From positions 372,001 through 436,000 of the forward strand of contig NZ_JACYOT010000004.1 in assembly GCF_014858005.1 (NCBI RefSeq): DNA of 64,000 nt. Reading direction: 5' to 3'. Below are positions 3,783 through 63,425 of the stretch, one piece after another (the stretch's first letter is position 1; each line of letters opens with the position of its first letter). The translations under genes and the position numbers were made by a program. The DNA comes from Propioniciclava soli (GTDB lineage Bacteria > Actinomycetota > Actinomycetes > Propionibacteriales > Propionibacteriaceae). The notes beneath the pieces were generated by a model. The model was not told the origin of the DNA, did no database searches, and saw only the letters and a list, made by a program, of their open reading frames with translations.

Positions 3783-3807
3783 GCGCTGCGGCGCCGGGGA
3801 GAAGCGC

Positions 3808-3873
3808 GACACGCACACTTCGGCCCCAAACTCCGGCTTGGGAGCCGGAGTTTGGGGCCGAAGTGTGCGTGTC
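3808..3873. terminator. perfect 31 bp hairpin (family 1), likely bidirectional terminator
   Basis: Arms 3808-3838 and 3843-3873 are exact reverse complements around a TGGG loop. The hairpin lies between the ends of two convergent genes, so it could end transcription from both sides. There is no obvious T-run, and the stem is much longer than an ordinary terminator. The inner 11 bases of each arm (AAACTCCGGCT and its complement) recur in the hairpin at 4899-4966. The outer arm differs there, with matching changes on the partner arm. Confidence 0.7.
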
Positions 3874-3903
3874 AGCCCGGGGCCGGCGCTGCGGCGCGTC
3901 GGC

Positions 3904-4629: not shown

Positions 4630-4800
4630 GCCACGTGGCGCACGCCGGGATCACGTGGCGCAGCGCGGCTCACCTGGAGGGCCGTGCACACCCCGCCACG
4701 TGAGCTGCGCTGCGCCAGGTGGAGCGAAGGCGAGCCACGTGATGCCATGGGCGGCCACGTGCCTCCAGGCTGCGTCAGGAGGCACCAGAGTGCGCACGTG
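4630..4800. repeat. CACSTG repeat cluster, copy 1
   Basis: Contains CACGTGGCGCA-type units at the left in one orientation and CCACGTG or CCAGGTG units at the right in the other. The 58 bp core at 4667-4724 aligns without gaps to 34090-34147, with 49 of 58 positions identical by eye. No coding function is seen. Confidence 0.7.
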
Positions 4801-4898: not shown

Positions 4899-4966
4899 CG
4901 ACACGCTCACTCGTGGCTCAAACTCCGGCTCCCAAGCCGGAGTTTGAGCCACAAGTGAGCGTGTCG
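4899..4966. terminator. 32 bp hairpin with one mismatch (family 1)
   Basis: Arms 4899-4930 and 4935-4966 pair at 31 of 32 positions around CCCA. The loop is the reverse complement of the TGGG loop at 3839-3842, so this copy is inverted relative to the first. It lies just beyond the 3' end of the ACT-domain gene, as a terminator would. The outer arm differs from the first copy at about six positions, all but one compensated on the partner arm. Confidence 0.65.
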
Positions 4967-5800: not shown

Positions 5801-8269
5801 ATGGCTGACCCCGTCTCCCGCGTCCCGCTCAACGACGGCTGGCGAGTCACGACGCCGGCCGGGCCATTCGCCCGCTTCACCGGCGAGCAACCCGAGGTGC
5901 GGGACGTGCGCCTGCCGCACGATGCCATGCGCGACGCCGACCGCACCCCGGACGCCCCCTCCGGCGGGTCATCCGGCTATTACCCGGGTGGGGTGTGGCG
6001 GTACCTGCGCAGCCTGGACGTGCCCGGTGACTGGGCCGATCGCTTCATCAACGTCACCTTCGACGGCGCCTACGCGGGGGCCCGCGTCTACCTCGACGAC
6101 GTCCAGCTGGCCCACCGGCCGAGCGGCTACGCGCGCTTCCACGTCGATCTGACGCCGCACCTGCGCCCGGGCCACACCCAGGAACTCCGCGTCGACGTCC
6201 GGACCCATCTCGACAGCCGGTGGTACAGCGGGGCCGGGTTGTTCCGCCAGGTGCACCTGACCGTGGCCGGCGGCGTCCACCTCGCCCCGGACGGGGTCAC
6301 CGTGACCACCCCCGAGGTGGACGACGACCTGGCCGCGGTGGAGGTCGTCGCGCGCGTGGTGAACGACACCCGCTCCGTCCGCGAGGTGCGGCTGCACACC
6401 GAGCTGCGGGGCCCCGACGGTGCGGTTCTGGTCGAAGTCACCGAGCCCGTCACGGTCGCTCCCGGCACCCCCGCCGTCGTGCGCCGGCGCCAGTGGATCC
6501 GCGATCCGCACCGCTGGTCCCTCGACGACCCGGCCCTGCACACCGCGATCGTCCGCGTCCTCGACGACGAACTCGAGGAGCAGGCCGCCGTTTCCGACGA
6601 ACTCGCCGTGCGGTTCGGCGTTCGCACGGTGTCGGTGGACCCCTACCGCGGCTTCCGCCTCAACGGGGAGGCGCTCAAGCTGCACGGCACCTGCCTGCAC
6701 CACGACAACGGGCTGCTCGGCGCAGCGTCCCACCCCGCGGCCGAGCGGCGCCGCGTCCGGCTGCTGAAGGAGGCGGGGTTCAACGCGATCCGCAGCGCGC
6801 ACAACCCGGCGTCCCAGGTGCTGCTGGACGCCTGCGACGAGGTCGGCATGCTGGTCATGAACGAGGCGTTCGACATGTGGGCGGTGGAGAAGACGCCGTT
6901 CGACGCCAGCCGCGACTTCGCGACGTGGTGGGAGCGTGATCTGGCATCGATGGTCGAGGGCTCGGTCAACCACCCCAGCGTGGTGATGTACTCGATCGGC
7001 AACGAGATCCTCGAGCTCGGACGCCGCGACGGCCGCCTGCTCGGCCGCGCCCTGGCCGAGCGGACGCGCGCGCTCGACCCGACGCGGCCCGTCACCAACG
7101 GCATCCAGATGCTGTTCCTCGTCGACGTCGCCGATCTCATCGCCAAGGCGGGCGGGCTGAACGAGTTCATGGGCGGGCTCACCGACCGCACGGGGGAGGA
7201 CGGCCAGAACTTCGCCGCCGGCCAGAACGCCGCGGCCACGACGCCGGACGCTGACGCGGCCGTCCACGAGGCGGCGGCCGTGCTCGACGTGATGGGCTAC
7301 AACTACGCCGAGGACCGCTACGCCTACGATGCCGAACACCACCCGCAGCGGGTGAGCGTCGGCTCGGAGACCTTCCCGACCCGGATCGCCCACAACTGGG
7401 ACCAGGTGATGGCCCACGACCAGGTGATCGGCGATTTCACCTGGACCGGCTGGGACTACCTGGGCGAGGCCGGCATTGGTGGGCACGCCTACGCCGAGGA
7501 CGGCGCCGTCGCCCCCTACGGGCTGGGCTACCCGAACCTGCTGGCCGGGTGCGGCGACATCGACATCACGGGGTACCGCAAGACCGTGTCGCACTACCGC
7601 GAGATCGCGTTCGGCCTGGCCGACGGCCCGTTCCTGGCGGTGCAGCGCCCGGAGCGCTACCACCACACGCGGCCCCAGCCCAACGCCTGGCAGTGGAGCG
7701 ACACGGTGGCGAGCTGGTCGTGGCCGGGGTTCGAGGACGCGCCCGTCCGCGTCGAGGTGTACGCGCGGGCCGACGAGGTGGAGCTGCTGCTCGACGGTGA
7801 ATCGCTCGGCCGCGCGGCCGTGGGGGAGAAGCGGGCCCTGGTGGCGTCCTTCGACACCGTGTGGCGGCCCGGGGAGCTGACGGCGGTGGCTCACACCGAC
7901 GGCCAGGAGGTGGGGCGCACGACCCTGCGCTCGGCCGGGCCGGTGGCGGAGGTCCGTGCGGACGCCGAACGCGCGGAGCTCCACGGGACCGATGACCTCG
8001 GTTACGTCGCCGTCGCGCTCACCGATGCGCAGGGCGAGGTGGTCGTGACCGATCGGCGTCCCGTGTCGGTCGCCGTGGAGGGGCCGGCCGAGCTGGCCGG
8101 GTTCGGCACCGGTGCCTGGCGCACCGAGGAACGGTTCGACGCCACGACGTGCACGCCGCACGACGGCCGGGCCCAGGCGATCGTGCGCACCACCGGGCCG
8201 GGGACGGTGCGCGTCCGCATCACCGCCGAGGGCCTTCCGGACGCCGTCGCGGAGTTCACCGTGCGCTGA
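5801..8269 (+). CDS. glycoside hydrolase family 2 protein (beta-galactosidase-like)
   Basis: 822 residues. Order: N-terminal sugar-binding jelly roll, Ig-like domain from about residue 180, TIM barrel from about 275, then C-terminal beta domains of the DUF4982 kind. The barrel carries FNAIRSAHNP. The acid/base glutamate is E402 in SIGNEI and the likely nucleophile is E523 in VGSETFP. Family 2 enzymes hydrolyse terminal beta-galactosides, mannosides or glucuronides; the exact specificity cannot be read here. No signal peptide is present, so it probably acts on imported oligosaccharides. ATG at 5801 has GGAG six bases upstream. Downstream lies a secreted SLH protein with its own ribosome site. 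Confidence 0.9.
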   Translation: MADPVSRVPLNDGWRVTTPAGPFARFTGEQPEVRDVRLPHDAMRDADRTPDAPSGGSSGYYPGGVWRYLRSLDVPGDWADRFINVTFDGAYAGARVYLDDVQLAHRPSGYARFHVDLTPHLRPGHTQELRVDVRTHLDSRWYSGAGLFRQVHLTVAGGVHLAPDGVTVTTPEVDDDLAAVEVVARVVNDTRSVREVRLHTELRGPDGAVLVEVTEPVTVAPGTPAVVRRRQWIRDPHRWSLDDPALHTAIVRVLDDELEEQAAVSDELAVRFGVRTVSVDPYRGFRLNGEALKLHGTCLHHDNGLLGAASHPAAERRRVRLLKEAGFNAIRSAHNPASQVLLDACDEVGMLVMNEAFDMWAVEKTPFDASRDFATWWERDLASMVEGSVNHPSVVMYSIGNEILELGRRDGRLLGRALAERTRALDPTRPVTNGIQMLFLVDVADLIAKAGGLNEFMGGLTDRTGEDGQNFAAGQNAAATTPDADAAVHEAAAVLDVMGYNYAEDRYAYDAEHHPQRVSVGSETFPTRIAHNWDQVMAHDQVIGDFTWTGWDYLGEAGIGGHAYAEDGAVAPYGLGYPNLLAGCGDIDITGYRKTVSHYREIAFGLADGPFLAVQRPERYHHTRPQPNAWQWSDTVASWSWPGFEDAPVRVEVYARADEVELLLDGESLGRAAVGEKRALVASFDTVWRPGELTAVAHTDGQEVGRTTLRSAGPVAEVRADAERAELHGTDDLGYVAVALTDAQGEVVVTDRRPVSVAVEGPAELAGFGTGAWRTEERFDATTCTPHDGRAQAIVRTTGPGTVRVRITAEGLPDAVAEFTVR

Positions 8270-8354
8270 CGCCCGCGTATCAGGCCGGCGGCAACCGGAC
8301 TCCTTGCACCGATGCGTCCCGTGGCAGAGCGGGACCTCGGCAGGGGGTGCTCCC

Positions 8355-11300
8355 ATGGCTCGTCCGCTCCGTTGGTTGGTCACGCTGGTTCTCGCGTGGG
8401 CGCTCGTGTTCGGCCTCGGTCCCGCGGCCCGCGCCGAGGTGGGGGACCCGGCCGTCGCCCCGGCCACGCCGACGCCCACCGTCACCGCCACGCCCGAGGC
8501 GCCACCCGCCGCGACGCCGGAACGGTCGCCCGACCCCACGCCCGAACCCACTCCCCTCTTGCGGCCGGAGCCGTCCGCCGACCCCTCACCCACCCCCGTC
8601 CCGCCGGCGGAACCGGCACCCGACCCGGCACCTGAGGTCGCGCCGGAGCCTGCCCCGGAGAATGCCGCGAACCCGGCTGGCCCGGTGGCAGAATCCCCGG
8701 ACGCCGGGGCCCCGAACGCGCTTCCCGAGACCGACGCCTGCATCGCGATGCCGCTGGCGGCATGGGCAGCGCCCCTGCCGGTGGCGGCAGTGCGGACCGG
8801 ACTCCCGGAATGCTTCACGTTCACCACGCGCACCACCGGCCCGCACCAGGTGCGCTACGGCCGGCCGGGTGCAGGCATGCCCACCGAACTGTCCGTCTAC
8901 GATCCGGCCGGCACGCTCGTGCGTCGGTTCGACTCATGGAACCGCGGCGCGGTCGCCCCGCTCACCGCGGCGGTGACCTACCGGCTCATCGTCGGCGGGG
9001 GCGCCGTGGCCCCCGACCCGGCCTACACCGTCGGGGTGTTCGACCTCCTCGGCACCGCCTGTCGCTCCATCTCGACCGCCTGGGACGCCCCGGACGAAAC
9101 CATCACGTCCACCGCCCGCGGCCAGCTCGACTGCCGCCAGCTCACCGCAGCCGGCCCGGACACCCTGTGGCTGAGCGCCACCGGTCACCCGGTCGACGCG
9201 CTGGTCTACGACGCCTTCGGCGCGCAGCAGTGCTACGCCAGCATCACCGGCTTCGCGTGCCGTCTCGCCGCCGCGGGGCGCCATGTCGTCATCCTGCAGC
9301 CCGCGTCGGACGACCACGCGACGAGCACCATCAGCGTGCGGTCGCTGTCCGACGATCGCGGCTGCGTCACGGCGCCGCTCGGCTCCTGGCGCTCGCCGCT
9401 GCCGGCCGCCACCACGCGCACGCGGCTGGCCGAGTGCCGCCTCGTCACGACCACCTCGACCGGGCCCTACGTCATGCGTCTGCAGCCGGGCGCCCGGCGG
9501 CTGCAGACGTATGTCTTCGACACGGCGCGCACCCTCGTGGGTGAGCACGACACCAGCGACCTCGGCCCCGACGCGTACGCGGTGCTCCGTCTCCAGGGCG
9601 GGACCACCCACACGGTGGTGACCGTCGGCCCCGTGGATGCAACCCCCCAGACCTACCAGATCGGGCTCCTCGACATCATGGGCACCCCGGGGTGTGAGAG
9701 CGGCCTGGGCCGATGGGACGCCCCCGCCCGGCCGTTCGTCGCCGCGACCGGTGCCGAGGTCGACTGCCTGCAGCCCACGGCCGAGCGTGCCGGCCCTCTC
9801 CTGGTGTCCCTCGGCGCGCTCGGTTTCGTGGCGCTGGGTTTCGGCCCGGACGGTGGGCAGATCTGCGAGGTGACGACGAACGAGCCCATGACCTGCGGCG
9901 CAGCCGACCTCGGGCCGCGTCGGCTCCTGCTCATGCGTGGCACCCCGGCGGCGGGTGAGACCACCGTGTGGATCGGCGACCTGGCCGCACCGACCGGATG
10001 TGCGCCGCTCGGCACCGCCGCGTGGCGGACCCCCCTGCCCACCTCCGCGGTGCGCACCGGACCGCCGGAGTGCTTCGTGTACACGCCCACGGCGAGCGGA
10101 GCGCACGCGCTGCGGATCCATCGCACCACCGGGGCGGCACGGTTGTCCGTCACCGTGCACGATTCGCGGGGAGCGCGGGTGGCGGCCTTCGCCACGGACG
10201 GCGTCGACGAACCTTCGGCGGTGGTCGGGCTCGCGGTCAACGCTTCCCATCTGGTCGTCGTCACCAGCCCCGCCGCAGCGGCCGACACCACCTATCGGGT
10301 GGGGGTGGTTCCGGTCATGGAATCAACCGGTTGCCCGGTGCTGGACTCCGACCGGTGGGACACCGCGCCGTGGACCGCCGCCCTCGATCCGGGCGATCTC
10401 TGGGACTGTCGAGAACTCACCTCACCGGCCGGGAGCACGCTGTGGTGGTCCCACCTGGACCTGACCGGCAGCCCCGTCTTCACGGTGGTGGACGCTGTGG
10501 GTAGCCAGGTCTGCAGGACCCGGACGCGCTTCTCGGTGGGGTCCTTCCGCACGGGCGCGTGCCGGCTCACCGGCGTTGCGCCCTTCCGCGTCCTTGCCCA
10601 GTCGGCGAACGAGCAGCAGGCGCGGGGCACGACCTCCTGGGCGTCAATGGCGTCCAGGCAGGCCTGCGCGGACGCGTCCCGCACCATGTCATTCGCCGAA
10701 CCCGCGGCCAGCTTCCCCGCCCCGGCGACCGCCGGCGTCCGCTGCCTCACCCTGGGCCTGAGCACGGGCGACACGGCCCTGTTCTCCCTGGCGGGGGCCG
10801 ATGTCGCGGCGCTGGCGGGCTACATCGTGGACGCCGCAGGCGAGGAGCAGTGCAGCACCGCGGCCAACGCGAGTGTGTGTCGCCTCCGGGGGCGGGCACC
10901 CTTCCGCGCCGTGGTCACGGCCAGCCGACCCGGCGCGGTCGGGTCGTGGCAGGTGGCGGTGCGCCGCATCAACGCGCCGGTCGGCTGCGAACGCCTGGAC
11001 TCGCTGGTCACCGGTGCCAGCTGGGCCACCCGCCTGGATGCCGTGGACGCCGCCCGCTGCGTCCGCTTCGTGGCGGGCGCGGGGGACCAGCTGGATGCCA
11101 CGGCGTCCAACCCGGACGCGCCGGCCACTCTCCCGTACGGCATCTTCCAGGCGGACGGAACCGATGCCTGCAAACACCGCACGGACAGGACGGACCCCAA
11201 CTGCGCGGTGAGGGCCGGCGGCGACCTCACCGCCGTCCTCTGGGCGCGCAGCACCGTGCCGCTGGGGCGCGTGACGTTCGGGCTCGCCTGCTGGAACCCG

Positions 11301-14018
11301 GTGTGCGGTCCGGCAGCCTTCTCCTTGGCGCGCGTGACGCCAGCCGTGGTCGGCGCGGGAGCCACGACCAGCGTCGAGGTGAGCGGAAGGGTGCTCCTGC
11401 CCGGGACGACCGTGTCGCTCGTGCGTGGTGGTACCACCGTGCCGGGCACCGTGACCTCGTGGTCCGCCGACGCGCGCTCGGCCACCGTGCGGTTCGACCT
11501 TGCGTCCGCAGCGCTGGGATCCTACGACGTGGTGGCGCACTCTGCGACTGAGGGAACGGCCCGCCTCTTGGCCGGGCTGACGGTCCAGGCGCCCGAACAG
11601 CCGATCGTCAACGCCCGGCTCCTGACGCGGGGGGCCTTCCGCTGGGGCCGCTCCACCAGGTTCACGGTTGAGGTGACCAACCACGGCAATGTCGACGCGG
11701 GGGGCGTGCTGCTGATGGTCACCGGTCTGCCCGCGGCCAGCAACGTCAGCCCGCGGTTCAGTCTGGTCGATCCCAGGCTCCCCGTCACCGGGCGATCGGA
11801 CTGGTCGCAGGAGCGTGACACGTTCGTGCGTGACGGCGTCCGCGGCATCCCGCTCTACCTCAGCAGTCTGCCCGCCGGGAGCACCCGCTCCTACGAGTTC
11901 AACCTGGAGGTGCCGCAGCCGGCCCCGTTCACGCTCAGCGTGTCGGCTGGGCGTTGCCTCGTCACCGAGCCGCCCGGTGGCCCCGGGGCCGGCGTTGCCG
12001 AATCGGGCCGCTCTGCCGGGAGCGCCCAGCCGGACGCCTGGGGCTGGTTCGGGGCCGGTGGGTGCGGTGACGCGCTGCTCGACCTGTTCAAGCAGATCGT
12101 GATGGACGCCGTGCCGGGCGGTGCGTGCGCCGGTCTGGCCGCGGACGCTGCCGCCGCGATCGCCCGGAACGTCGCCAACGAAGCGCCGCCGTTCAGCGCC
12201 GCCTCGGCGTCGGACCTGTTCTGGTCCGGCCTGGGCTCGGTGGCCTGCGTGTCCTCCGTGATCCCGGGAGGGCAGGGACTGGCGGCCGTCCTCGGCGCGC
12301 TGGGGGAGGCCAACACCATGTTCACGGCCCTCGAGAAATGCTGGCCCGAGCAGGATTCGGCGACGATGGTGCCGGTCGCCTCGTTCGATCCGAACGAGTT
12401 GGTCGGGCCCCGCGGCGGCGGAACGGCGCACGCGCTGACGCCCGGTGGACGCCACCGGTTCTGCATCTACTTCGAGAACCTCGCCACCGCGACGGCCCCC
12501 GCCCAGGAGGTGCGGATCACCCACCACATCGACCCGGCCCACTACGACCTGGGCGACGTCCGGTTCTCCGACGTGCAGTTCGGCGCCACCCACTGGACAC
12601 CCGTCTCACCGAGCGGCCAGGTCGACGAGCGCCTCACGATCCCCGACGCGCTGGTGGTGGACGTGGATGCCACCGTGGACGCGGCGGCCGGCACGATCAC
12701 CTGGTCGCTCATCACCATCGACCCCCTCACCGGCGAGCTGCCCGAGGATCCACTGCGCGGCTTCCTGCCGCCCAACACCGACGGGACGCGCGGCCAGGGC
12801 GTCGTGTGGTTCGACGTGCCGCTCCGCGACGTCGCGAGCGGGACGGCGACCTCGAGCATCTCCGACATCGTGTTCGACCTCAACCCGGCCATCCGCACGA
12901 ACACGTGGAGCAACCTGATCGACGGGGTCGCGCCGCAGGCGGGGCTCGCGCCGCTGCCGCCAAACTCCCCGAATCCGACCTTCCCGGTGTCCTGGCAGGC
13001 CAGCGACGCCCACGCCGGCGTCCGGCAGGTGGAGCTGTTCGTGACCGTCGACGGTGGCGCGCCGACGCCGTGGGCCACGGTCACCGACGCGACCGGTTCG
13101 CGCCCGTTCACTGGCGCCCCGGGGCACGCCTACGGGTTCTACGCGATCGCCACGGACGCCGCCGGGCTCCGCTCGGCGACGCCCACCGCGCCGCAGGCCA
13201 CCACCCGGGTGGGGTCCGGAACCACGGCCGTCACCGCGGTGCCGCCGGTGTTCGCCGAACGCTGCGGCACCGGGTCCGACACCGTGACCATCCCGGCGAC
13301 GCCCGGCGTCGGCTACCTCATCGGTGGCCAAACCGCCGCGGCCGGCGTCCACCCCGCGCGGGGGCAGGTCATCGTGGAGGCGCGGGCCCTGCCCGGGTAC
13401 GTGCTCACGGGCACGACCCGCTGGGCCGCCAGCTTCGCGGCCGGCAGCGTGTTCGACGACGTGCCCGTGGGCACCGAGCACCTGGAGTCGATCTGCTGGA
13501 TGTACGTCCGTGGCCTCACCACGGGCTACGGGACGCCGCCGCGGCTGACCTACCAGCCCGTGTCGCCGGTGAACCGCGACGCCATGGCGGCCTTCCTCTA
13601 CCGGTACGCCGGCAGCCCCGCCTACACCCCGCCCGCGATCTCGCCGTTTGCCGACGTGCCGACGACGGCGCAGTTCTACAAGGAGATCGCGTGGCTCGCC
13701 GAACAGGGCATCACGACCGGCTGGGAGACCGGGGGCCGCCGCTACTACCGTCCGCTGACGCCCGTGAACCGGGACGCGATGGCGGCCTTCCTCTACCGGT
13801 TTGCCGGCTCCCCGGTGTGGACGCCACCCGCGGCGTCCCCGTTCGCCGACCTGACCCCGAGCACGGCGTTCTATTCCGAGATCACCTGGCTGGCCCACCA
13901 CGGCATCACCACCGGCTGGGTGGACGGCCCGCGCCGACAGTTCCGCCCGGTGAACCCGGTGAACCGCGACGCCATGGCCGCGTTCCTGCAGCGCTACGAC
14001 GCCGCCGAGCTGCGGTGA
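8355..14018 (+). CDS. giant secreted multi-domain protein with C-terminal SLH-like repeats
   Basis: 1,887 residues, exported. A signal peptide (residues 1-28, ending ARA) precedes a Pro/Thr/Glu/Ala-rich linker to about residue 120. Eight modules of about 105-110 residues follow (starting near 127, 235, 335, 442, 548, 657, 766 and 875), each opening with a Cys and carrying a second Cys about 25-30 residues later. Next come a TIG/IPT-like domain (about 985-1085), a CARDB/DUF11-like beta domain (about 1085-1200), and a region beginning FDPNELVGP (about 1343-1520) that resembles the DUF7619-type domain. Three SLH-like repeats (about 1700-1887), each with NRDAMAAFL, end the protein. SLH repeats usually attach proteins to cell-wall glycans. 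Ligand unknown. Confidence 0.88.
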   Translation: MARPLRWLVTLVLAWALVFGLGPAARAEVGDPAVAPATPTPTVTATPEAPPAATPERSPDPTPEPTPLLRPEPSADPSPTPVPPAEPAPDPAPEVAPEPAPENAANPAGPVAESPDAGAPNALPETDACIAMPLAAWAAPLPVAAVRTGLPECFTFTTRTTGPHQVRYGRPGAGMPTELSVYDPAGTLVRRFDSWNRGAVAPLTAAVTYRLIVGGGAVAPDPAYTVGVFDLLGTACRSISTAWDAPDETITSTARGQLDCRQLTAAGPDTLWLSATGHPVDALVYDAFGAQQCYASITGFACRLAAAGRHVVILQPASDDHATSTISVRSLSDDRGCVTAPLGSWRSPLPAATTRTRLAECRLVTTTSTGPYVMRLQPGARRLQTYVFDTARTLVGEHDTSDLGPDAYAVLRLQGGTTHTVVTVGPVDATPQTYQIGLLDIMGTPGCESGLGRWDAPARPFVAATGAEVDCLQPTAERAGPLLVSLGALGFVALGFGPDGGQICEVTTNEPMTCGAADLGPRRLLLMRGTPAAGETTVWIGDLAAPTGCAPLGTAAWRTPLPTSAVRTGPPECFVYTPTASGAHALRIHRTTGAARLSVTVHDSRGARVAAFATDGVDEPSAVVGLAVNASHLVVVTSPAAAADTTYRVGVVPVMESTGCPVLDSDRWDTAPWTAALDPGDLWDCRELTSPAGSTLWWSHLDLTGSPVFTVVDAVGSQVCRTRTRFSVGSFRTGACRLTGVAPFRVLAQSANEQQARGTTSWASMASRQACADASRTMSFAEPAASFPAPATAGVRCLTLGLSTGDTALFSLAGADVAALAGYIVDAAGEEQCSTAANASVCRLRGRAPFRAVVTASRPGAVGSWQVAVRRINAPVGCERLDSLVTGASWATRLDAVDAARCVRFVAGAGDQLDATASNPDAPATLPYGIFQADGTDACKHRTDRTDPNCAVRAGGDLTAVLWARSTVPLGRVTFGLACWNPVCGPAAFSLARVTPAVVGAGATTSVEVSGRVLLPGTTVSLVRGGTTVPGTVTSWSADARSATVRFDLASAALGSYDVVAHSATEGTARLLAGLTVQAPEQPIVNARLLTRGAFRWGRSTRFTVEVTNHGNVDAGGVLLMVTGLPAASNVSPRFSLVDPRLPVTGRSDWSQERDTFVRDGVRGIPLYLSSLPAGSTRSYEFNLEVPQPAPFTLSVSAGRCLVTEPPGGPGAGVAESGRSAGSAQPDAWGWFGAGGCGDALLDLFKQIVMDAVPGGACAGLAADAAAAIARNVANEAPPFSAASASDLFWSGLGSVACVSSVIPGGQGLAAVLGALGEANTMFTALEKCWPEQDSATMVPVASFDPNELVGPRGGGTAHALTPGGRHRFCIYFENLATATAPAQEVRITHHIDPAHYDLGDVRFSDVQFGATHWTPVSPSGQVDERLTIPDALVVDVDATVDAAAGTITWSLITIDPLTGELPEDPLRGFLPPNTDGTRGQGVVWFDVPLRDVASGTATSSISDIVFDLNPAIRTNTWSNLIDGVAPQAGLAPLPPNSPNPTFPVSWQASDAHAGVRQVELFVTVDGGAPTPWATVTDATGSRPFTGAPGHAYGFYAIATDAAGLRSATPTAPQATTRVGSGTTAVTAVPPVFAERCGTGSDTVTIPATPGVGYLIGGQTAAAGVHPARGQVIVEARALPGYVLTGTTRWAASFAAGSVFDDVPVGTEHLESICWMYVRGLTTGYGTPPRLTYQPVSPVNRDAMAAFLYRYAGSPAYTPPAISPFADVPTTAQFYKEIAWLAEQGITTGWETGGRRYYRPLTPVNRDAMAAFLYRFAGSPVWTPPAASPFADLTPSTAFYSEITWLAHHGITTGWVDGPRRQFRPVNPVNRDAMAAFLQRYDAAELR

Positions 14019-32667: not shown

Positions 32668-32793
32668 TCGCCGTTCGCGATCACCGTCCCTTGACGCTGG
32701 CGCCGCTCGCCGCCTGCTGCCCGCCGCCTACCGCTCGTCGCCCGCCCCGTGTCCACGCCCATCAACGTGGGGCGCGTGCGAACCGGTATGGGG

Positions 32794-32799
32794 CAAGAT
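32794..32799 (+). promoter_or_regulatory. candidate -10 box of lgt
   Basis: CAAGAT ends 6 bases before GTG 32806. It departs from the consensus at the first base but has the same spacing as neighbouring genes. Confidence 0.35.
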
Positions 32800-32805
32800 G
32801 GCGGC

Positions 32806-33750
32806 GTGCTGCTGTCCATCCCGAGCCCCGACATCCGGTCCTTCTCCCTCGGGCCGCTGACCATCCACATCTACGCGCTGTGTCTCATGGCCGGCATGGC
32901 CGCGGCGTGGTGGATCGGCTCGCGCCGCTGGGTCGCGCGCGGGGGGCGTCCGGAGACGTTCGAGACCATCGCGCTGTGGTCGATCCTGATCGGCATCGTC
33001 TTCGCCCGGATCTACCACGTGCTGACCCATTGGGGCGACTACTTCGGCCCCGGCCGCAACCCGTGGAGCGCGCTCTACATCTGGGAGGGCGGCATCGCCA
33101 TCTTCGGCTCACTGATCGGCGGGGCGCTGGCCGCGTTCCTCGTGTGCCGCCACCTCGGGGCGCGCTACGGCGCCTTCGCGGACGCCCTCGCCCCCGGCCT
33201 GATCATCGCCCAGGGCATCGGACGCCTCGGCAACTGGTTCAACCAAGAGCTGTTCGGCGGGCCGGACGACGGACCGCTGGGCCTGGAGATCGACCCGCAG
33301 TACCGTCCCGCGGAGTACGCCGACGTCGCCACGTTCCAACCGACGTTCCTCTACGAGATGACGTGGAACATCAGCGGTGGCCTGCTGCTGCTGTGGCTCG
33401 ATCGGCGCTTCAAGCTGGGCTGGGGCAAGGTGTTCGCGCTGTACATGGTGATCTACGGCACGGGGCGGTTCTTCATCGAAGGGCTGCGGACCGACGTCAG
33501 CTACCAGCTCGGCCCGCTGCGCACCAACCAGGTGACGGCCCTGCTGGTGCTGCTGGGTGGCGCGCTGCTGTTCGTGACCCTCACCCGGTTGCGCCCCGGA
33601 CGCGAACCGTGGGTGGAGCGCCGCGGCATCGGCGGCCCGGATGCGGAGGCCGATGCCGATCCGGATGTCGACGCCGACGCCGATTCCGGCGTTGATGCCG
33701 ATGCCGATGCCGACACTGGCACCGGTGGGGGCGCGACCGCCGCCTCCTGA
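32806..33750 (+). CDS. lgt: prolipoprotein diacylglyceryl transferase Lgt
   Basis: 314 residues, seven hydrophobic segments. Attaches diacylglycerol to the lipobox cysteine of lipoproteins at the membrane. The signature GRLGNWFNQELFGG and the RTDVSYQLGPLRTNQ region are present. GTG 32806 gives LLSIPSPDIRSF, the usual N-terminus; ATG codons at 32749 and 32788 are alternatives. The last about 40 residues are a low-complexity acidic tail of Asp-Ala pairs from 6 bp repeats, likely variable in length. It follows the trp operon, as in many Actinobacteria. Confidence 0.94.
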   Translation: MLLSIPSPDIRSFSLGPLTIHIYALCLMAGMAAAWWIGSRRWVARGGRPETFETIALWSILIGIVFARIYHVLTHWGDYFGPGRNPWSALYIWEGGIAIFGSLIGGALAAFLVCRHLGARYGAFADALAPGLIIAQGIGRLGNWFNQELFGGPDDGPLGLEIDPQYRPAEYADVATFQPTFLYEMTWNISGGLLLLWLDRRFKLGWGKVFALYMVIYGTGRFFIEGLRTDVSYQLGPLRTNQVTALLVLLGGALLFVTLTRLRPGREPWVERRGIGGPDAEADADPDVDADADSGVDADADADTGTGGGATAAS

Positions 33751-33902
33751 GCAGGACCTCCGGCGACTGTTACGGTCGGCCGGACGCCCCCGGGGGACGC
33801 CCTCGGGACCCGGCCTCGGGACCCGGTCGACGCGGCGCTGGTTCTCGCTCAACGACTTCTGGGCACGCCGAGGAGCACTCGGTGCAGCGTCGTGGCCGGT
33901 GC

Positions 33903-34260
33903 GATGCTCACCTGGCGCACCCTCGGACACGTGGCGCACCTTGACGTCACGTGGCGCGGTGGGGGTCCCGGTGGCGATGTTCACCTGGCGCAATCTGGGC
34001 ACACGTGGCGCGGTGGCGGTCCCGTGGCGATGTTCACCTGGCGCACTCTGGGCCCACGTGGCGGACCTTGGTGTCACGTGGCGCAGTGGGGCTCACGTGG
34101 AGGCCCGTGCAAGGCCCGCCAGGTGGGCTGCGCTGCGCCACGTGCAGTTCTGCTGCGCCTCGTGGAGAGAAGCTGCGCCACGTGGAGTCGGGGTGCGCAA
34201 CGTGGAGTCGGGGTGCGCAACGTGGAGTCAAGGTGCGCCCCGTCGGGCTGCGCAAGGCCG
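33903..34260. repeat. CACSTG repeat array, copy 2 (head-to-head)
   Basis: CACSTGG units begin at 33909, 33928, 33948, 33982, 34002, 34035, 34055, 34075 and 34094, mostly 19-20 bases apart. After a centre near 34100-34135 the units invert, and CNCGTG-type units recur at 20-base steps near 34139, 34159, 34179, 34199 and 34219. The core 34090-34147 matches 4667-4724. Confidence 0.8.
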
Positions 34261-34369
34261 CATGGGAGCGGCGCAGGGAGCACCATCGCCGACCGGTGGC
34301 CCGCAGAGGGGCCGCTGATCGCGTCCACCACAGCCAACGGTCCCGCCAGCAGCAGCCGGCGCCGGCCCG

Positions 34370-34840
34370 CCTCCCTGTCCTTGGCGTCGCCTCCCTGCCG
34401 CTGGAGCCGCCCCCCTGTCCGGCGCCGTCCCCCCTGCCGTTGCAACGGCAGGGAGGTGTGCTCTTGGCAGGGCGGCGGTCGTTGGGGTAGCGAGGCGACG
34501 GTACCGGCAGGGTCGCGGCGGCAAGGGCAGGGTCATGGCGGACGCAACAGGGGCGCGGCGGACGCAACAGGGTCGCGGCGGCAAGGGCAGGGTCATGGCG
34601 GACGCAACAGGGGCGCGGCGGACGCAACAGGGTCGCGGCGGCAAGGGCAGGGTCATGGCGGACGCAACAGGGGCGCGGCGGACGCAACAGGGTCGCGGCG
34701 GCAAGGGCAGGGTCATGGCGGACGCCACAGGGCGCGGCGGACGCGACAGGGGCGCGGCGGAGGCAACAAGGTTGCGGCGGCCAGGGCGGGGAAGCTGCGG
34801 CCAGGGCGGGGCGCGGCGGCACCGGGTGGGCTGAACGCGG
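34370..34840. repeat. 20 bp CCCTG repeat array with palindromic centre
   Basis: Left units carry CCTCCCTG or CCCCCTG every 20 bases. A 22 bp perfect palindrome at 34432-34453 forms the centre. Right units carry CAGGG on the same strand every 20 bases. Within the right side, 34511-34690 is three perfect copies of a 60 bp block made of three 20 bp units, plus a partial fourth. Homologous in design to 61933-62273. Confidence 0.8.
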
Positions 34841-34991
34841 TAGGTCGGCATGGGCGGGGCGCTGCGGCACCGGGCGGGCTGAGCACGGCAGGGTGGCGAT
34901 CCGTGAATGGGGTGGCGGTGGACGCGGACGGCGCGGGCGTCCGGATGGCGGACCGGCGCGGCGATGGTCGCCCGCGTGGGGGACCCGTCGC

Positions 34992-34997
34992 TAGGCT
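34992..34997 (+). promoter_or_regulatory. -10 box of the gltBD operon
   Basis: TAGGCT lies 81 bases before GTG 35078, giving a leader of about 73 bases. Confidence 0.4.
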
Positions 34998-35077
34998 GCC
35001 ACTGCGCACCATGCGGTGTGGCCAGGAAGGTTGTCCGTTGGATGGCTGCCACAGAGCCCGTTGGAGCAGGAGAACAA

Positions 35078-38000
35078 GTGAACGCACGCACCCACCGGCC
35101 CGATGAGGGCCTGTACCGCCATGACTTCGAGCACGACGCCTGCGGTGTCGCCTTTGTCGCCCGACTGAGCGGCGAGGCGTCCCACGACATCATTGCGCAG
35201 GGACTGCTCGCCCTGGAGAACCTCGACCACCGCGGCGCCACCGGTGCCGACGAGGCGGCCGGCGACGGGGCGGGCATGCTGCTGCAGATCCCCGACCGGC
35301 TGTTCCGCGACACCGTCGACTTCGACCTCCCCCCGGCGGGCAGCTATGCCGTGGGCATGGCGTTCCTGCCGCAGGATGCGGTGGAGCGCGCCACGGCGAA
35401 GCGCTCGATCGAGTACATCGCGATCGAGGAGGGTCTGCGCGTCCTCGGCTGGCGCGAGGTGCCGATGAGTTCCGACACGCTCAGCCCGATCACGCTGGCC
35501 GTCATGCCGCACATGGAGCAGCTCTTCGTCACCGGACGCGGTGCCGCCGGCATCGACCTCGACCGGCTCGTCTACCCGCTGCGCAAGCGGGTGCGCAACG
35601 AGGCGTCGGTGTACTTCGCGTCGCTCAGCGCCCGCACCACGGTCTACAAGGGGATGCTCACCACCCAGCAGCTTGCCGAGACGTTCCCCGACCTGCTCGA
35701 CGAGCGCACCGAGTCCGCCCTGTCGCTGGTGCACAGCCGGTTCTCGACCAACACGTTCCCGAGCTGGCAGCTCGCCCACCCCTTCGGCTTCATCGCCCAC
35801 AACGGCGAGATCAACACGGTCAAGGGCAACCGCAACTGGATGCGGGCCCGCGAGGCGCTGCTCCAGAGCGACCTGATCCCCGGCGACCTGGATCGGCTCT
35901 TCCCGATCTGCTCGGCGGAATTCTCCGACTCGGCGTCCTTCGACGAGGTGCTCGAGCTGCTCCACCTTGGCGGACGCTCGCTGCCGCATGCCGTGCTCAT
36001 GATGATTCCCGAAGCCTGGCAGAACCACACCGAGATGGACGCCGCACGCCGCGCGTTCTACTCCTTCCACAGCTCCGTGATGGAGCCCTGGGATGGCCCC
36101 GCCGCGGTCTGCTTCACCGACGGTGCCCTCATCGGCGCCACGCTCGACCGCAACGGCTTGCGTCCGGGGCGTTACTGGGTGACCGACGACGGGCTGGTGG
36201 TGTTCGCGTCCGAGGCGGGCGTGCTGCCCATCGAGCCCGAGCGCGTGGTCGAGAAGGGACGCCTCCAGCCCGGCCGCATGCTGCTGGTCGACCTCGAGGA
36301 GCACCGCCTCATCAACGACGACGAGATCAAGGCCGGCCTCGCCGCCGAGCACCCGTACGCGGAGTGGCTGGAGCAGCGCGTCGATCTGGAGGATCTCCCC
36401 GAGCGCCAGCACGTCGTCCACAGCCACGCGTCGGTGGTCCGGCGGCAGCAGGTGTTCGGCTTCACGCATGAGGAGCTCAAGCAGATCGTCGCGCCCATGG
36501 CGCAGACGGGTGCCGAGCCCATCGGCTCGATGGGCTCCGACACGCCGGTGGCCGTGTTGTCGGACCGCCCGCGGTTGCTCTTCGACTACTTCAGCCAGCT
36601 GTTCGCCCAGGTCACGAACCCGCCGCTGGACGCGATCCGCGAGGAGCTCGTCACCTCGTTGGCGTCCTCGCTCGGCCCGGAGGCGAACCTCCTGGAGGCC
36701 GGCCCGCAGTCGTGCCAGCAGGTCGTGGTGGGGTACCCGGTGCTCGACTCCGACGAGCTGGCCAAGCTGGTGCGGATCAACCGGGACGGCTCGATGCCGC
36801 AGCTGGACGCCCACGTGGTCCGCGGGTTGTACCGACTGCTCGGCGGGCCCGATGAGCTGGCGCGCCGGCTCGAGGAGATCTGCGCCGAGGTGAGCGGGGC
36901 CATCGAGCGGGGCGCGCACATCATCATCTTGTCCGACCGGCACAGCAACATCGACTACGCGCCGATCCCCTCGTTGCTGCTCACCGCGGCGGTCCACCAC
37001 CACCTCGTGCGGGAGAAGACGCGCACCCAGGTGGGGCTCGTGGTCGAGGCCGGTGACGTGCGCGAGGTGCACCACGTCGCGCTGCTCATCGGGTACGGCG
37101 CCGCGGCCGTGAACCCGTACCTGGTGTTCGAGTCGGCGGAGGATCTGGCGCGCCGCGAGGTGCTCGTCACCGTCGACCCCGAGAAGGCCGTCAAGAACGT
37201 CCGCAAGGCGCTCGGCAAGGGCGTCCTGAAGGTCATGAGCAAGATGGGCGTCTCGACCATCGCCTCCTACACCGGGGCCCAGATCTACGAGGCGCTCGGC
37301 CTGAACAGCACATTCGTCGAGCGCTACTTCACCGGCACCACCAGCCGCATCGAGGGCATCGGCCTGCCGGAGATCGCCAGGGAGATCCAGGCGCGCCACG
37401 ACGTCGGCTACCCCGTCGACCGGCGGACGCTGCCGCACCGCACCATCGACGTGGGTGGGGAGTACAAGTGGCGCCGCGAGGGCCCGCCGCACCTGTTCGA
37501 CCCCGAGACGGTGTTTCGCCTGCAGCACGCCACCCGCGAGAAGCGCTACGACATTTTCAAGCAGTACACGAGCCGGGTGGACGACCAGGCCAAGCGGCTG
37601 ATGACGCTGCGCGGCCTGTTGGAGTTCGACACGGACGCCCGCGAGCCGATCAGCATCGACGAGGTCGAGCCGGTCAGCGAGATCGTCAAGCGGTTCTCCA
37701 CCGGCGCGATGAGCTACGGCTCGATCTCCCAAGAGGCGCACGAGACCCTCGCGATCGCCATGAACCGGCTCGGCGGCAAGTCGAACACCGGCGAGGGCGG
37801 GGAGGACCACGAGCGGCTCCACGACCCGCGGCGTCGCTCGGCGATCAAGCAGGTGGCGTCCGGCCGGTTCGGCGTGACGAGTGACTACCTGACGAACGCC
37901 GACGACCTCCAGATCAAGATGGCCCAGGGCGCCAAGCCCGGCGAGGGCGGCCAGCTGCCCGGCCAGAAGGTCTACCCGTGGGTGGCCAAGACGCGGCACT

Positions 38001-39595
38001 CGACGCCGGGCGTGGGGTTGATCAGCCCGCCGCCGCACCACGACATCTACTCGATCGAGGATCTCAAGCAGCTCATCCACGACCTGAAGTGCGCGAACCC
38101 GGTGGCCCGGGTGCACGTCAAGCTGGTCGCCGAGGTGGGCGTGGGCACGGTCGCGGCCGGCGTCTCGAAGGCGAAGGCCGACGTCGTGCTGATCTCCGGC
38201 CACGACGGCGGCACCGGTGCGGCTCCGCTGACGTCGCTCAAGCACGCCGGCGGCCCGTGGGAGCTCGGCCTCGCCGAGACCCAGCAGACGCTGCTCCTCA
38301 ACGGCCTGCGCGACCGGATCGTCGTGCAGGTGGACGGCCAGCTCAAGACCGGCCGCGACGTCGTGATCGGCGCCCTGCTCGGTGCCGAGGAGTTCGGCTT
38401 CGCGACCGCGCCGCTGGTCGTCAGCGGCTGCATCATGATGCGCGTGTGTCACCTGGACACTTGCCCGGTCGGCGTCGCGACGCAGAACCCGGAGCTGCGG
38501 GCCAAGTACTCGGGCCACGCCGACTTCGTCGTGACCTTCTTCGAGTACATCGCCGAGGAGGTGCGCGAGCATTTGGCCGCGCTGGGCTTCCGGTCGATCG
38601 AGGAGGCCGTCGGCCACGTCGAGGTGCTGCGCACCAAGGCGGCCGTTGACCACTGGAAGGCCCAGGGTCTGGACCTCGCGCCGGTGCTGCACCAGGTGGC
38701 CGTCGACGGCCCGCTGCACCGCGTCACGACGCAGGATCACGGGCTGGAGGCGAAGCTGGACGTCGAGCTGATCGAGCGCTCGCGTCCGGCGCTGGAGCGC
38801 GGCGAGAAGGTGCGCTTCGCGGTCGACGTCCGCAACGTGGACCGCACGGTGGGCACCATGCTCGGCCACGAGGTGACCAAGGTCAGCGGCGGCGAGGGCT
38901 TCAACGACGACACCATCGAGATCACGTTCACCGGCACGGGCGGGCAGAGCTTCGGGGCGTTCGTGCCCCGGGGCGTCACGCTGAAGCTCATCGGCGACAC
39001 GAACGACTACTTCGGCAAGGGGCTGTCGGGCGGACGCCTGTCCGTGCGGCCGCACCCCGAGGCGTCCTTCGCGGCCGAGGAGCAGATCGTGGCGGGCAAC
39101 GTCATCGGCTACGGCGCCACCTCGGGTGAGCTCTACATCCGCGGCCGGGTCGGCGAGCGCTTCTGCGTGCGCAACTCCGGCGCCACCGCGGTGGTCGAGG
39201 GCGTCGGGGACCACGGGTGTGAGTACATGACCGGCGGTGAGGCGTTGGTGCTCGGCGCGACGGGCCGCAACTTCGCGGCCGGCATGTCCGGCGGCGTCGC
39301 GTGGGTGCTCGGCCTGGACGAGGGCCGGCTCAACACCGAGATGGTGGACGCCTGGGAGCTGGACGACGACGACGTGGCGCGCATCACCGAACTGCTGGGG
39401 CGTCACGCCGCCGAGACCGACTCGGCCGTGGCCCGCGGGCTGCTCGACGAGGGTCCGGAGGCATGGCGGGGCCGGTTCACCAAGGTGGTGCCGCGTGATT
39501 ACGCCCGGGTGCTGGCCGCCCGTGCCTCGGCCGAGGCCGAGGGGCTCAGTGAGGAAGAGACCGTGACGAAGATGATGGAGGCTGCTCATGGCTGA
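35078..39595 (+). CDS. gltB: glutamate synthase large subunit GltB
   Basis: 1,505 residues. With GltD it makes two glutamates from glutamine and 2-oxoglutarate using NADPH. The N-terminal type 2 amidotransferase domain begins after cleavage before C22 (HDACGVAF). The central and FMN-binding synthase domains follow, with GDTPV-like [10 protein letters not shown] and [11 protein letters not shown]. The 3Fe-4S cluster cysteines are C1118, C1124 and C1129. The C-terminal beta-helix ([20 protein letters not shown]) completes the protein. GTG 35078 has AGGAG at good spacing and gives a normal propeptide; ATG 35042 is possible. Overlaps gltD by eight bases. Confidence 0.96.
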
Positions 39596-51220: not shown

Positions 51221-51276
51221 GGCATTTGGACCCGAGGAAATGGCGCCATGGCACCATTTCCTCGGGTCCAAATGCC
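51221..51276. terminator. perfect 23 bp hairpin (family 2), likely bidirectional terminator
   Basis: Arms 51221-51243 and 51254-51276 pair exactly around CGCCATGGCA. It lies between convergent genes. Same outer stem and loop as 45521-45572, with different but compensated inner pairs. Confidence 0.75.
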
Positions 51277-58454: not shown

Positions 58455-58787
58455 GACCGTCCCAGCTCCAGCACGTCGGGGTGGGACGCGAAGTCGTTCA
58501 CCTCGATGTCGGTGGCCTCCTGCGCGCTCAGCGCCGCGACCGTGGCGCCGGTCCGCTCGCTTCCGGCGCTTCGGGCGCTTCCGGCCAGGCGGCCACCTTC
58601 CCTGTGACGCTCAAGATCATGCAGGCCGGCGAGCTGCACTGCGCCACGTGTCATCGAGGTGCGCCACCTGTCAGCAGGGTGCGCCACGGCACCGCGCAGC
58701 GCGTCCGGCGGTGGGGGCGGCGGCGTCTGAAGGCACCCTTTGGGGTACGACTGCGGCGGACGCCTGTTGGACGGCCTGCCGGGCGCG
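58455..58787. other. spacer before katE with CACSTG units
   Basis: No credible gene. The notable content is three 20-base units of the CACSTG family at 58637-58696; the rest is unremarkable high-GC sequence up to the katE promoter. Confidence 0.55.
58637..58696. repeat. CACSTG repeat units, copy 3
   Basis: TGCGCCAC begins three successive 20-base units; the first two have CACGTG and CACCTG. They match the right half of the array at 34139-34240 in motif and period. Confidence 0.65.
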
Positions 58788-61154: not shown

Positions 61155-61880
61155 GTGAAGTCGCTCACCTTGCTGCCCGCCGTCGACGTCCAGTCCGGCC
61201 AGGCCGTCCAGCTCACCCAGGGCATCGCCGGGTCGGAGAAGACCTTCGGGGATCCGCTGGCCGCCGCCCGCCGCTGGCAGGACGCCGGCGCCGAGTGGCT
61301 GCACCTCGTCGACCTGGACGCGGCCTTCGGACGCGGCTCGAATGCGGACGTCATCGCCGAGATCACCGCCGCGATGGAGCTGAACGTGGAGCTGTCGGGT
61401 GGCATTCGTGACGACGCCTCCCTCGAGCGTACGTTGGCCACCGGCTGCCGCCGGGTCAACATCGGCACCGCGGCGCTGGAGAACCCGGAGTGGTGCGCCA
61501 AGATCATCGGCGAGCACGGCGACCGGATCGGCATTGCGATCGACGTGAAGGGCACCAAGCTGGCGGCGCGCGGCTGGGTGCGTGAGGGGGGAGACTGGGC
61601 GCAGGCCGTGGACGAGCTGACGGCCGCCGGCTGTTCCACCTTCGTGGTGACCGACGTGGCCTCGGACGGCATGCTCACCGGCCCGAACATCGATCTCCTG
61701 CAGCAGGTCGCGGCTCGCACCGGCGCCGAGGTCATCGCGTCGGGCGGCATCGCCCAGCTCGATGACCTCCGGGCACTCCGGGAGCTGGTGCCGCTTGGCA
61801 TCACCGGTGCGATCATCGGCACGGCGCTCTACGTCGGCAACTTCACCCTCACCGACGCCCTGGTTGTCGCCGGCGACTGA
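61155..61880 (+). CDS. priA: phosphoribosyl isomerase HisA, probably bifunctional PriA
   Basis: 241 residues. Isomerises ProFAR in histidine synthesis; actinobacterial PriA also performs the TrpF step. [15 protein letters not shown] holds the first catalytic aspartate and [14 protein letters not shown] the second. The ARGW stretch in the middle matches the Arg and Trp that let PriA accept the tryptophan substrate. No trpF is seen in the trp operon here, which fits dual use. GTG 61155 is supported by its -10 box. No hisF follows. Confidence 0.93.
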
Positions 61881-61932: not shown

Positions 61933-62273
61933 CGTCGCCCCTCTGGCGCTGGCGTCGCCTGCCTGCCCCCGGGGGGCGCCTCCCTTCCGCTGGTGTCGCG
62001 TCCCTGTCGGACGCGTCGCCTCCCTGTCGCACGCGTCGCCTCCCTGTCGCACGCCTCGCCTCCCTGTCGGACGCGTCGCGTCCCTGTCGGACGCGTCGCC
62101 GCCCCATCCCAAACCCACGACCCTGCCGCTGCAACGCTGGGGAGGTGGGTTGCGGGCAGGGTCGCGACGGTGGTGGTAGGGAGGCGACGGTACCGGTAGG
62201 GAGGCGCGGGCGGCGGCAGGGGAGCGGGGCTACCGGCAGGGTGGCGGGGCTACCGGCAGGGTGGCGGGGATGG
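61933..62273. repeat. 20 bp CCCTG repeat array, second locus
   Basis: Five units of TCCCTGTCGSACGCGTCGCC type run at exact 20-base steps from about 62001 to 62100. The centre near 62119-62147 (CCCTGCCGCTGCAACG then GGGGAGGTG) matches the centre at 34432-34458. On the right the units appear as GTAGGGAGGCG and CAGGGTGGCGGGG in the opposite sense. GAGGCGACGGTACCGG occurs in both loci. Confidence 0.8.
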
Positions 62274-62403
62274 GGGTGACCCATCGGTGGACCCGGCTTG
62301 ATCGCAGGAATGGGCGCCGTCGGAGCGGCTCCCACGGCCGGCACCCGTGGACGCCATCCGCCGGGAGGCACCTGCGTCCTGTCGACGCCGGACGGTCGGT
62401 GGT

Positions 62404-62548
62404 GTCGAGAACCCATGCACATGCACGCCTTGTCGACGCCTGACGGACCGCGCACGTCGAGAATCCATGCACATGCACGCCTTGTCGACGCTGGACGGCC
62501 CGCGCACGTCGAGAACCCATGCACATGCACGCCTCGTCGACGCCGGGG
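62404..62548. repeat. 52 bp tandem repeat, about 2.8 units
   Basis: Units start at 62404, 62456 and 62508, each opening GTCGAGAA and carrying CCATGCACATGCACGCC then GTCGACGC. A partial unit precedes them near 62389. Cores recur at 24848-24933 and 44403-44436. Confidence 0.85.
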
Positions 62549-62660: not shown

Positions 62661-63425
62661 ATGAGCGGTCACTCCAAGTGGGCCACCACGAAGCACAAGA
62701 AGGCGGCGATCGACGCCAAGCGCGGCAAGCTGTTCGCGAACCTCATCAAGAAGATCGAGGTCGCGGCGCGCACCGGTGGTGGTGACCCCGGGGGCAACCC
62801 GACGCTGTACGACGCCATCCAGAAGGCGAAGAAGAACTCCGTTCCCAACGACAACATCGATCGCGCCGTCAAGCGCGGTTCGGGCGTCGGCGGCGAGGCG
62901 GTCGACTACGTCGAGATCATGTACGAGGCGTACGGCCCCGGGGGCGTCGCGATCCTCATCGAGTGCCTCACCGACAATCGCAACCGCTCGGCGTCCGATG
63001 TGAAGGTCGCGATCACGCGCAACGGCGGCACGCAGGCCGACGTCGGCTCGGTGAGCCGCATCTACGACCGCAAGGGCGTCGTCACGGTCGCCAAGCAGCA
63101 GGCGAAGCCCGTCAGCGAGGATGACCTGCTCGAGGCCACCCTCGAGGCCGAGCCGGAGGACATCGTCGACGGCGGCGAGTCCTTCCAGATCGTCTGCGAC
63201 CCGACCAACCTGGTCGAGGTGCGCAAGGCCGTCCAGGACGCGGGGCTCGACTACGACGCCGCCGAGGTGGAGTTCCGCCCCCAGTACGACCAGGCGGTGT
63301 CGGACGCCGACGGCGCGGCCAAGCTGTTCAAGCTGCTGGACGCCATCGAGGACGTCGACGACGTGCAGAACGTCTACTCCAATGAGGACGTGCCGGAGGA
63401 AATCCTCGAATCCCTCGACGCCTGA
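62661..63425 (+). CDS. yebC: YebC/PmpR family protein
   Basis: 254 residues. The N-terminal [20 protein letters not shown] is diagnostic. Members have been described as transcriptional regulators and, more recently, as translation factors that help ribosomes at proline stretches. The length is normal and the protein complete. It precedes ruvC, as in many bacteria. Confidence 0.95.

Follow-up and report, generated by a model that had tools for sequence, protein, structure and literature searches.

Inverted arrays of 20-bp units in Propioniciclava soli and a congener share one spacing across unrelated sequences

Why should two arrays of unrelated sequence, lying side by side in one intergenic gap, be built to the same plan? 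The question arises from a 64,000-nucleotide stretch of Propioniciclava soli DNA (here called the window), in which the 1.33-kb gap between lgt (ending at 33750) and gltB (starting at 35078), both on the + strand, contains two arrays of inverted units, referred to as family A and family B. The features of the locus are as follows.

32749-33750, + strand: lgt, prolipoprotein diacylglyceryl transferase (PF01790), upstream of the arrays
33909-34243, no strand: family B array, likewise between lgt and gltB, with CACGTG/CACCTG units and its center at 34094-34125
34367-34436, - strand: left arm of the family A array, with four CCCTG units and steps of 20, 20, and 19 (from core positions and TRF)
34432-34453, no strand: family A center, perfect 22-bp palindrome CCCTGCCGTTGCAACGGCAGGG with a core-to-core step of 17; the same center geometry occurs at other loci
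34449-34811, + strand: right arm of the family A array, with CAGGG units, a first step of 19, and steps of 20 thereafter
34511-34690, + strand: three identical 60-bp copies of three units each
35078-39595, + strand: gltB, glutamate synthase large chain, downstream of the arrays

A first-pass annotation had described the family A array as 20-bp units with CCCTG to the left and CAGGG to the right of a palindromic center, and the core positions were confirmed from 34373 to 34802. Cores of the left arm start at 34373, 34393, 34413, and 34432, and those of the right arm at 34449, 34468, 34508, 34528 and onward to 34728, 34747, 34782, and 34802, with a degenerate unit, TAGCG, at 34488. The palindrome was exact on inspection. 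The unit length of 20 bp held for the outer steps but not for the units adjoining the center, which measured 19 bp (34432 to 34413 and 34449 to 34468). The identity at lag 20 across 34367-34800 was 0.604, vs 0.329 ± 0.021 in shuffles; it exceeded all 1,000 shuffles (maximum, 0.411), and the periodicity of the array is therefore not due to chance. Periods of 20 and of 60 were both detected by TRF. Positions 34511-34570, 34571-34630, and 34631-34690 were identical in the draft assembly of 65 contigs, and the following 60-bp copy was imperfect; as had been proposed, the three copies, as assembled, indicate a recent expansion in the right arm, which decays beyond about 34760. Directly upstream of gltB, a leader at about 35010-35062 (CATGCGGTGTGGCCAGGAAG...GGCTGCCACAGAGCCCGTTGG) was conserved in congeners, had no Rfam match, and is a possible regulatory RNA.

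Both families were dispersed through the genome to which the window belongs (G000, a draft assembly of 3.8 Mb in 65 contigs). Searches of this genome with the family A array of the lgt-gltB gap and with the neighboring CACSTG array identified at least about 32 distinct loci of family A and at least about 40 loci of family B, respectively; these totals are lower bounds, with 40 candidates scored of 112 for family A and of 95 for family B. Several contig ends (the ends of C54, C64, C8, and C65 and the start of C63) coincided with an A or B array or lay close to one. The assembly may therefore have broken at arrays and may undercount them. In the fetched loci, with no period assumed, the core-to-core steps were 20, 20, 19, 17, 19, and 20 in family A and 20, 20, 19, 26, 19, and 20 in family B, the center step thus differing by family (17 vs 26). 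When aligned about the axis, the arms of family A read CAACGGCAGGGnGGTGggntncgG followed by repeated CAGGGnGGCG, and those of family B read CAcGGgCCgCCACGTGAGCtgCaCTGCGC followed by repeated CACGTG. In about 9 of 28 family A loci, as in the lgt-gltB gap, a complete or fragmentary family B array lay no more than roughly 700 bp away. Additional members of these families, and an element of a third family, E, were located elsewhere in the window.

4631-4764, no strand: the window's second family B array, center about 4671-4702
4899-4966, no strand: family E element, a palindrome of about 68 bp and strong hairpin, with sites 19 bp apart at axis+6 and +25
58637-58688, no strand: short family B fragment of two to three units
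61977-62269, no strand: the window's second family A array, center 62121-62142, between hisF (ending at 61880) and yebC (starting at 62661)

Family E had at least 40 loci in this genome, and its palindromes of about 68 bp (CGACACGC...GGAGTTTGAG...GCGTGTCG) had the same 19-bp step between sites. A second element of this family was present in the window at 3806-3881, with further copies in loci L184-L213.

Other repeats were observed in the window. Family D is a 56-bp near-perfect palindrome (GGCATTTGGACCCGAGGAAATGGCGCC|...), found at 51221-51276 and in L058 (3246), L072 (3494), L077 (753), and L051 (4335); the genome contained at least 40 copies, 88-100% identical, and the 12 congeners contained none. 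The copies at 51221 and in L077 were flanked by convergent genes, and the family looks either recently spread or strongly held. Family F comprises 52-bp direct repeats (TGTCGACGCC...CACATGCACGCCT) at 62380-62546, in L029 (about 3298), and in L031 (about 2979), and these repeats also occurred near other arrays. A 195-bp tandem repeat at 13564-13987, within a long open reading frame (8112-14018), probably encodes repeated protein domains.

The distribution of the arrays was narrow. Searches of 12 congeners gave no match to family A or B, apart from one of 31 bp, and none to family E. In 197 other genomes of the taxonomic family, family A gave a single weak 50-bp match, and family B had only one 27-bp match beyond its own genome; a pattern scan for family B in 85,000 genomes, with its own genome left out, returned three isolated single matches in unrelated taxa. 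The lgt-gltB gap of the congeners contained no array and measured about 160-600 bp, vs 1.33 kb here. A period-20 repeat scan showed that one congener, G005, which is assembled as a single contig, possessed a separate family, C (GGGGGCGTCTCGTCGCAAGC), which gave 180 matches in that genome, none in G000, and one weak match in G007. Its steps, with no period assumed, were 19, 14, 19, 20, and 20, and usually one arm was kept at two sites and the other was long. Family C elements of G005 occurred in clusters of three to five tandem copies (L097 1-1137, L183 7920-9107, and L140), with two sites in the short arm and 4-16 in the long arm. The number of 9-mers repeated at lag 20 per 100 kb was 195 in the window and 104-415 in G005, and it was 0-7 in 14 other genomes (14-200 kb sampled in each). 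Since arrays of the same plan were present in a single-contig genome, the architecture is not an assembly artifact.

The proposal that unrelated sequences share one architecture was strongly supported, and in two species: the 20-bp step, the inverted halves, and the special center recurred in families A, B, and C, and what family E shared was the 19-bp inner step. A common homology of these four families was rejected, as their consensus arms aligned no better than shuffles, the exception being the pair C and E (P = 0.013, six tests). Two other candidates for a common denominator were also rejected: a TGCA axis, which held for most A and B copies, failed for most C copies, and a G-quadruplex or R-loop did not fit family B, which has no G-runs.

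Arrays were intergenic and avoided divergent promoters, a placement like that of REPs, which lie between genes and mostly between convergent or co-directional ones (PMC3733652). Placement was scored with a simple gene finder. Of the 54 A and B arrays that could be placed, 21 were in convergent gaps and 7 in divergent gaps; of 88 gaps with no array, 9 were convergent (P = 9e-5) and 31 were divergent (P = 0.0035). In 21 of 28 co-directional gaps, the center of the array was closer to the 3' end of the upstream gene. A regulon was rejected as an explanation: the genes beside the five divergent A arrays encode enzymes and transporters that are unrelated to one another, and none encodes a DNA-binding regulator.

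Across the loci of families A and B, nearly all of the information was located in the sites, and the spacer columns were close to background. The outer spacing was 20 in 66 of 69 family A steps, which had 65 distinct spacers, and in 24 of 25 family B steps, so that the fixed unit length held at other loci across the genome; the centers used for these counts, as for the arm alignments and arm matching of both families, were chosen by score assuming 19/20 offsets. Most family A arms stopped just past a complete site. Such a pattern, with near-random spacers, is what selection on the sites and their phase, or a copying process acting on them, would leave. These features sit poorly with an origin by neutral slippage and gene conversion with no dedicated protein, in which the arrays would be junk satellites keeping 20 bp by mutual copying. 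The perfect 60-bp copies do indicate recent slippage, and neighboring family A units were more alike than distant ones (0.59 vs 0.54), but conserved sites at a held spacing between near-random spacers, together with a 19/20 ruler common to families of unrelated sequence, make this origin decidedly improbable. The arrays might also be nucleoid or supercoiling sites that are useful to the host. Binding of gyrase or a nucleoid protein has been proposed for BIMEs, and the arrays would be comparable platforms, placed where transcription units end and positive supercoils accumulate. This role would agree with the enrichment in convergent gaps, the depletion at divergent promoters, the constant spacing of two helical turns, and the use of several sequences in one geometry. 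However, the families of this genome were absent from the 12 congeners with the same core genes, and the sampled stretches of most of these congeners had no arrays, so the arrays are not needed in general; a requirement for fixed cores such as CAGGG or CACGTG is not known for gyrase. We consider this role rather unlikely.

Mirrored arms might also exist in order to pair, as RNA or single-stranded DNA hairpins that act as bidirectional terminators or mRNA stabilizers. The location of arrays at gene 3' ends is in line with such a function, as are the inverted arms, whose predicted RNA reached -95 kcal/mol (z of -6.5 for family A and -4.7 for family B); given this stability, a hairpin role may exist for family A. 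Nevertheless, family A arms folded no better with their own partners than in chimeric pairs with arms from other loci (-90.6 vs -91.2 kcal/mol; P = 0.63-0.69), and real family B pairs were less stable than chimeras (-95.6 vs -100.3 kcal/mol; P = 0.9996). In the same test, real family E hairpins were more stable than chimeras (P = 0.003), which favors pairing in that family and indicates that the test has power. For the inner unit of family A, identity was 0.458 between left and right arms and 0.463 ± 0.024 between loci; no mirror covariation between arms was detected in family A, and the arms of the family B center were anti-matched (identity of 0.325 vs 0.525 ± 0.046 expected). No GC-rich hairpin with a T-tract terminator was found in 33700-35120. 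Families A and B are thus not kept as hairpins, though family A RNA would fold well; with arms that do not covary and chimeras that fold as well (A) or better (B), recognition at the DNA level fits better than an RNA hairpin, and pairing as the reason for the arrays is improbable. Family B centers shared one asymmetric sequence, CACGGGCCG on one arm and CAAGGCCCT on the other, which suggests either one copy that spread or two unlike half-sites.

The observed anatomy, genome-wide copies, species restriction, gene-end location, and conservation of sites and spacing would be explained, with about an even chance in our estimation, by a species-restricted REP-like repeat whose sites are read side by side by a putative protein acting in trans, with held spacing and slippage. 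The nucleus would be a palindrome of about 70 bp in which each arm has two recognition sites at a distance of 19 bp, and the arms would have been lengthened outward by further sites in 20-bp steps, or about two helical turns. A putative sequence-specific protein, encoded in trans, would bind the sites as double-stranded DNA, with adjacent copies lined up along one face from the central inverted pair outward. This recognition, whether it serves to copy or move the element or has a structural role, would preserve sites and spacing, and slippage would add and remove units, the 60-bp triplet being an example. The element presumably spread within the species, and different species would have different site sequences on the same kind of lattice.

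A bolder and less probable reading is that of a new nucleoprotein system, in which a fast-evolving putative protein would form a polar lattice with two helical turns per subunit, growing outward from a four-site palindromic nucleus, and would spread or maintain its own sites between genes. In such a system, the ruler of 19 and then 20 bp would be fixed, and the recognized sequence would be replaced between species and between coexisting families. A common machinery that generates or binds the families, as the first-pass annotation had suggested, is plausible; its binding half is favored by conserved sites and a spacing of 20 despite saturated spacers, whereas the classical generator, RAYT, is absent. 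The usual explanation of interspersed repeats in bacteria is the action of RAYT transposases on hairpins. In the present genome, REP-like placement was found without RAYT, with two main families that are not kept as hairpins and with one ruler for unrelated sequences in two species. The prediction is a sequence-specific protein with a lattice spacing of about 20 bp, and the arrays would offer a case of rapid coevolution between a DNA-binding protein and its genomic sites.

No described match to inverted arrays of 20-bp units was found in the literature, and comparison with known systems is therefore by parts. Plasmid iterons, to which an initiator binds, are direct repeats spaced by about two helical turns; unlike them, the present arrays are chromosomal, occupy dozens of loci, and have inverted halves, with no rep gene seen nearby. 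The RAYT domain (Y1_Tnp, PF01797) was detected in 0 of 13 genomes of the genus, positive controls being detected, and neither a GTAG nor a CGTC tag was present in the arm consensus of family A or B. Serine recombinases were encoded in G000, in G005, and equally in congeners that lack arrays, and they were rejected as trackers of the arrays. The Rfam search gave no matches across the window. With no Y1 transposase, tag, or pairing, the arrays are not a RAYT-REP system as defined, and they are neither a T-tract terminator nor an Rfam family.

The arrays resemble REPs, BIMEs, and REPINs in being short palindromic repeats in tens of intergenic copies, in forming inverted pairs and clusters, and in being patchy between species (PMC3733652, PMC3116915, PMC2817692). 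They differ in their fixed 19/20-bp ladder with many sites per arm and, for families A and B, in the lack of RAYT and of a GTAG tag and in arms that do not covary as hairpins. At the ends of IS607-family elements (IS1535), short direct motifs follow one another at helical spacing and are cooperatively bound by multiple serine-transposase dimers; as in the arrays, end sequences are unrelated between elements, and in one case a motif lies one bp closer than the rest (PMC6188088). Those units, however, are of about 10 bp and belong to a coding transposon, whereas the arrays have 20-bp units, a palindromic center, and no coding sequence. BldC, from an actinobacterium, binds a variable number of direct repeats in a polar, cooperative manner, and its head-to-tail multimers provide a precedent for a cooperative array (PMC5859096), although its repeats are 9 bp long, AT-rich, located in promoters, and without an inverted center. 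The parallels with BldC and with IS607-family TnpA are analogies only. In their placement the arrays are like a REP-type dispersed repeat, and in their anatomy they are like a cooperative binding array.
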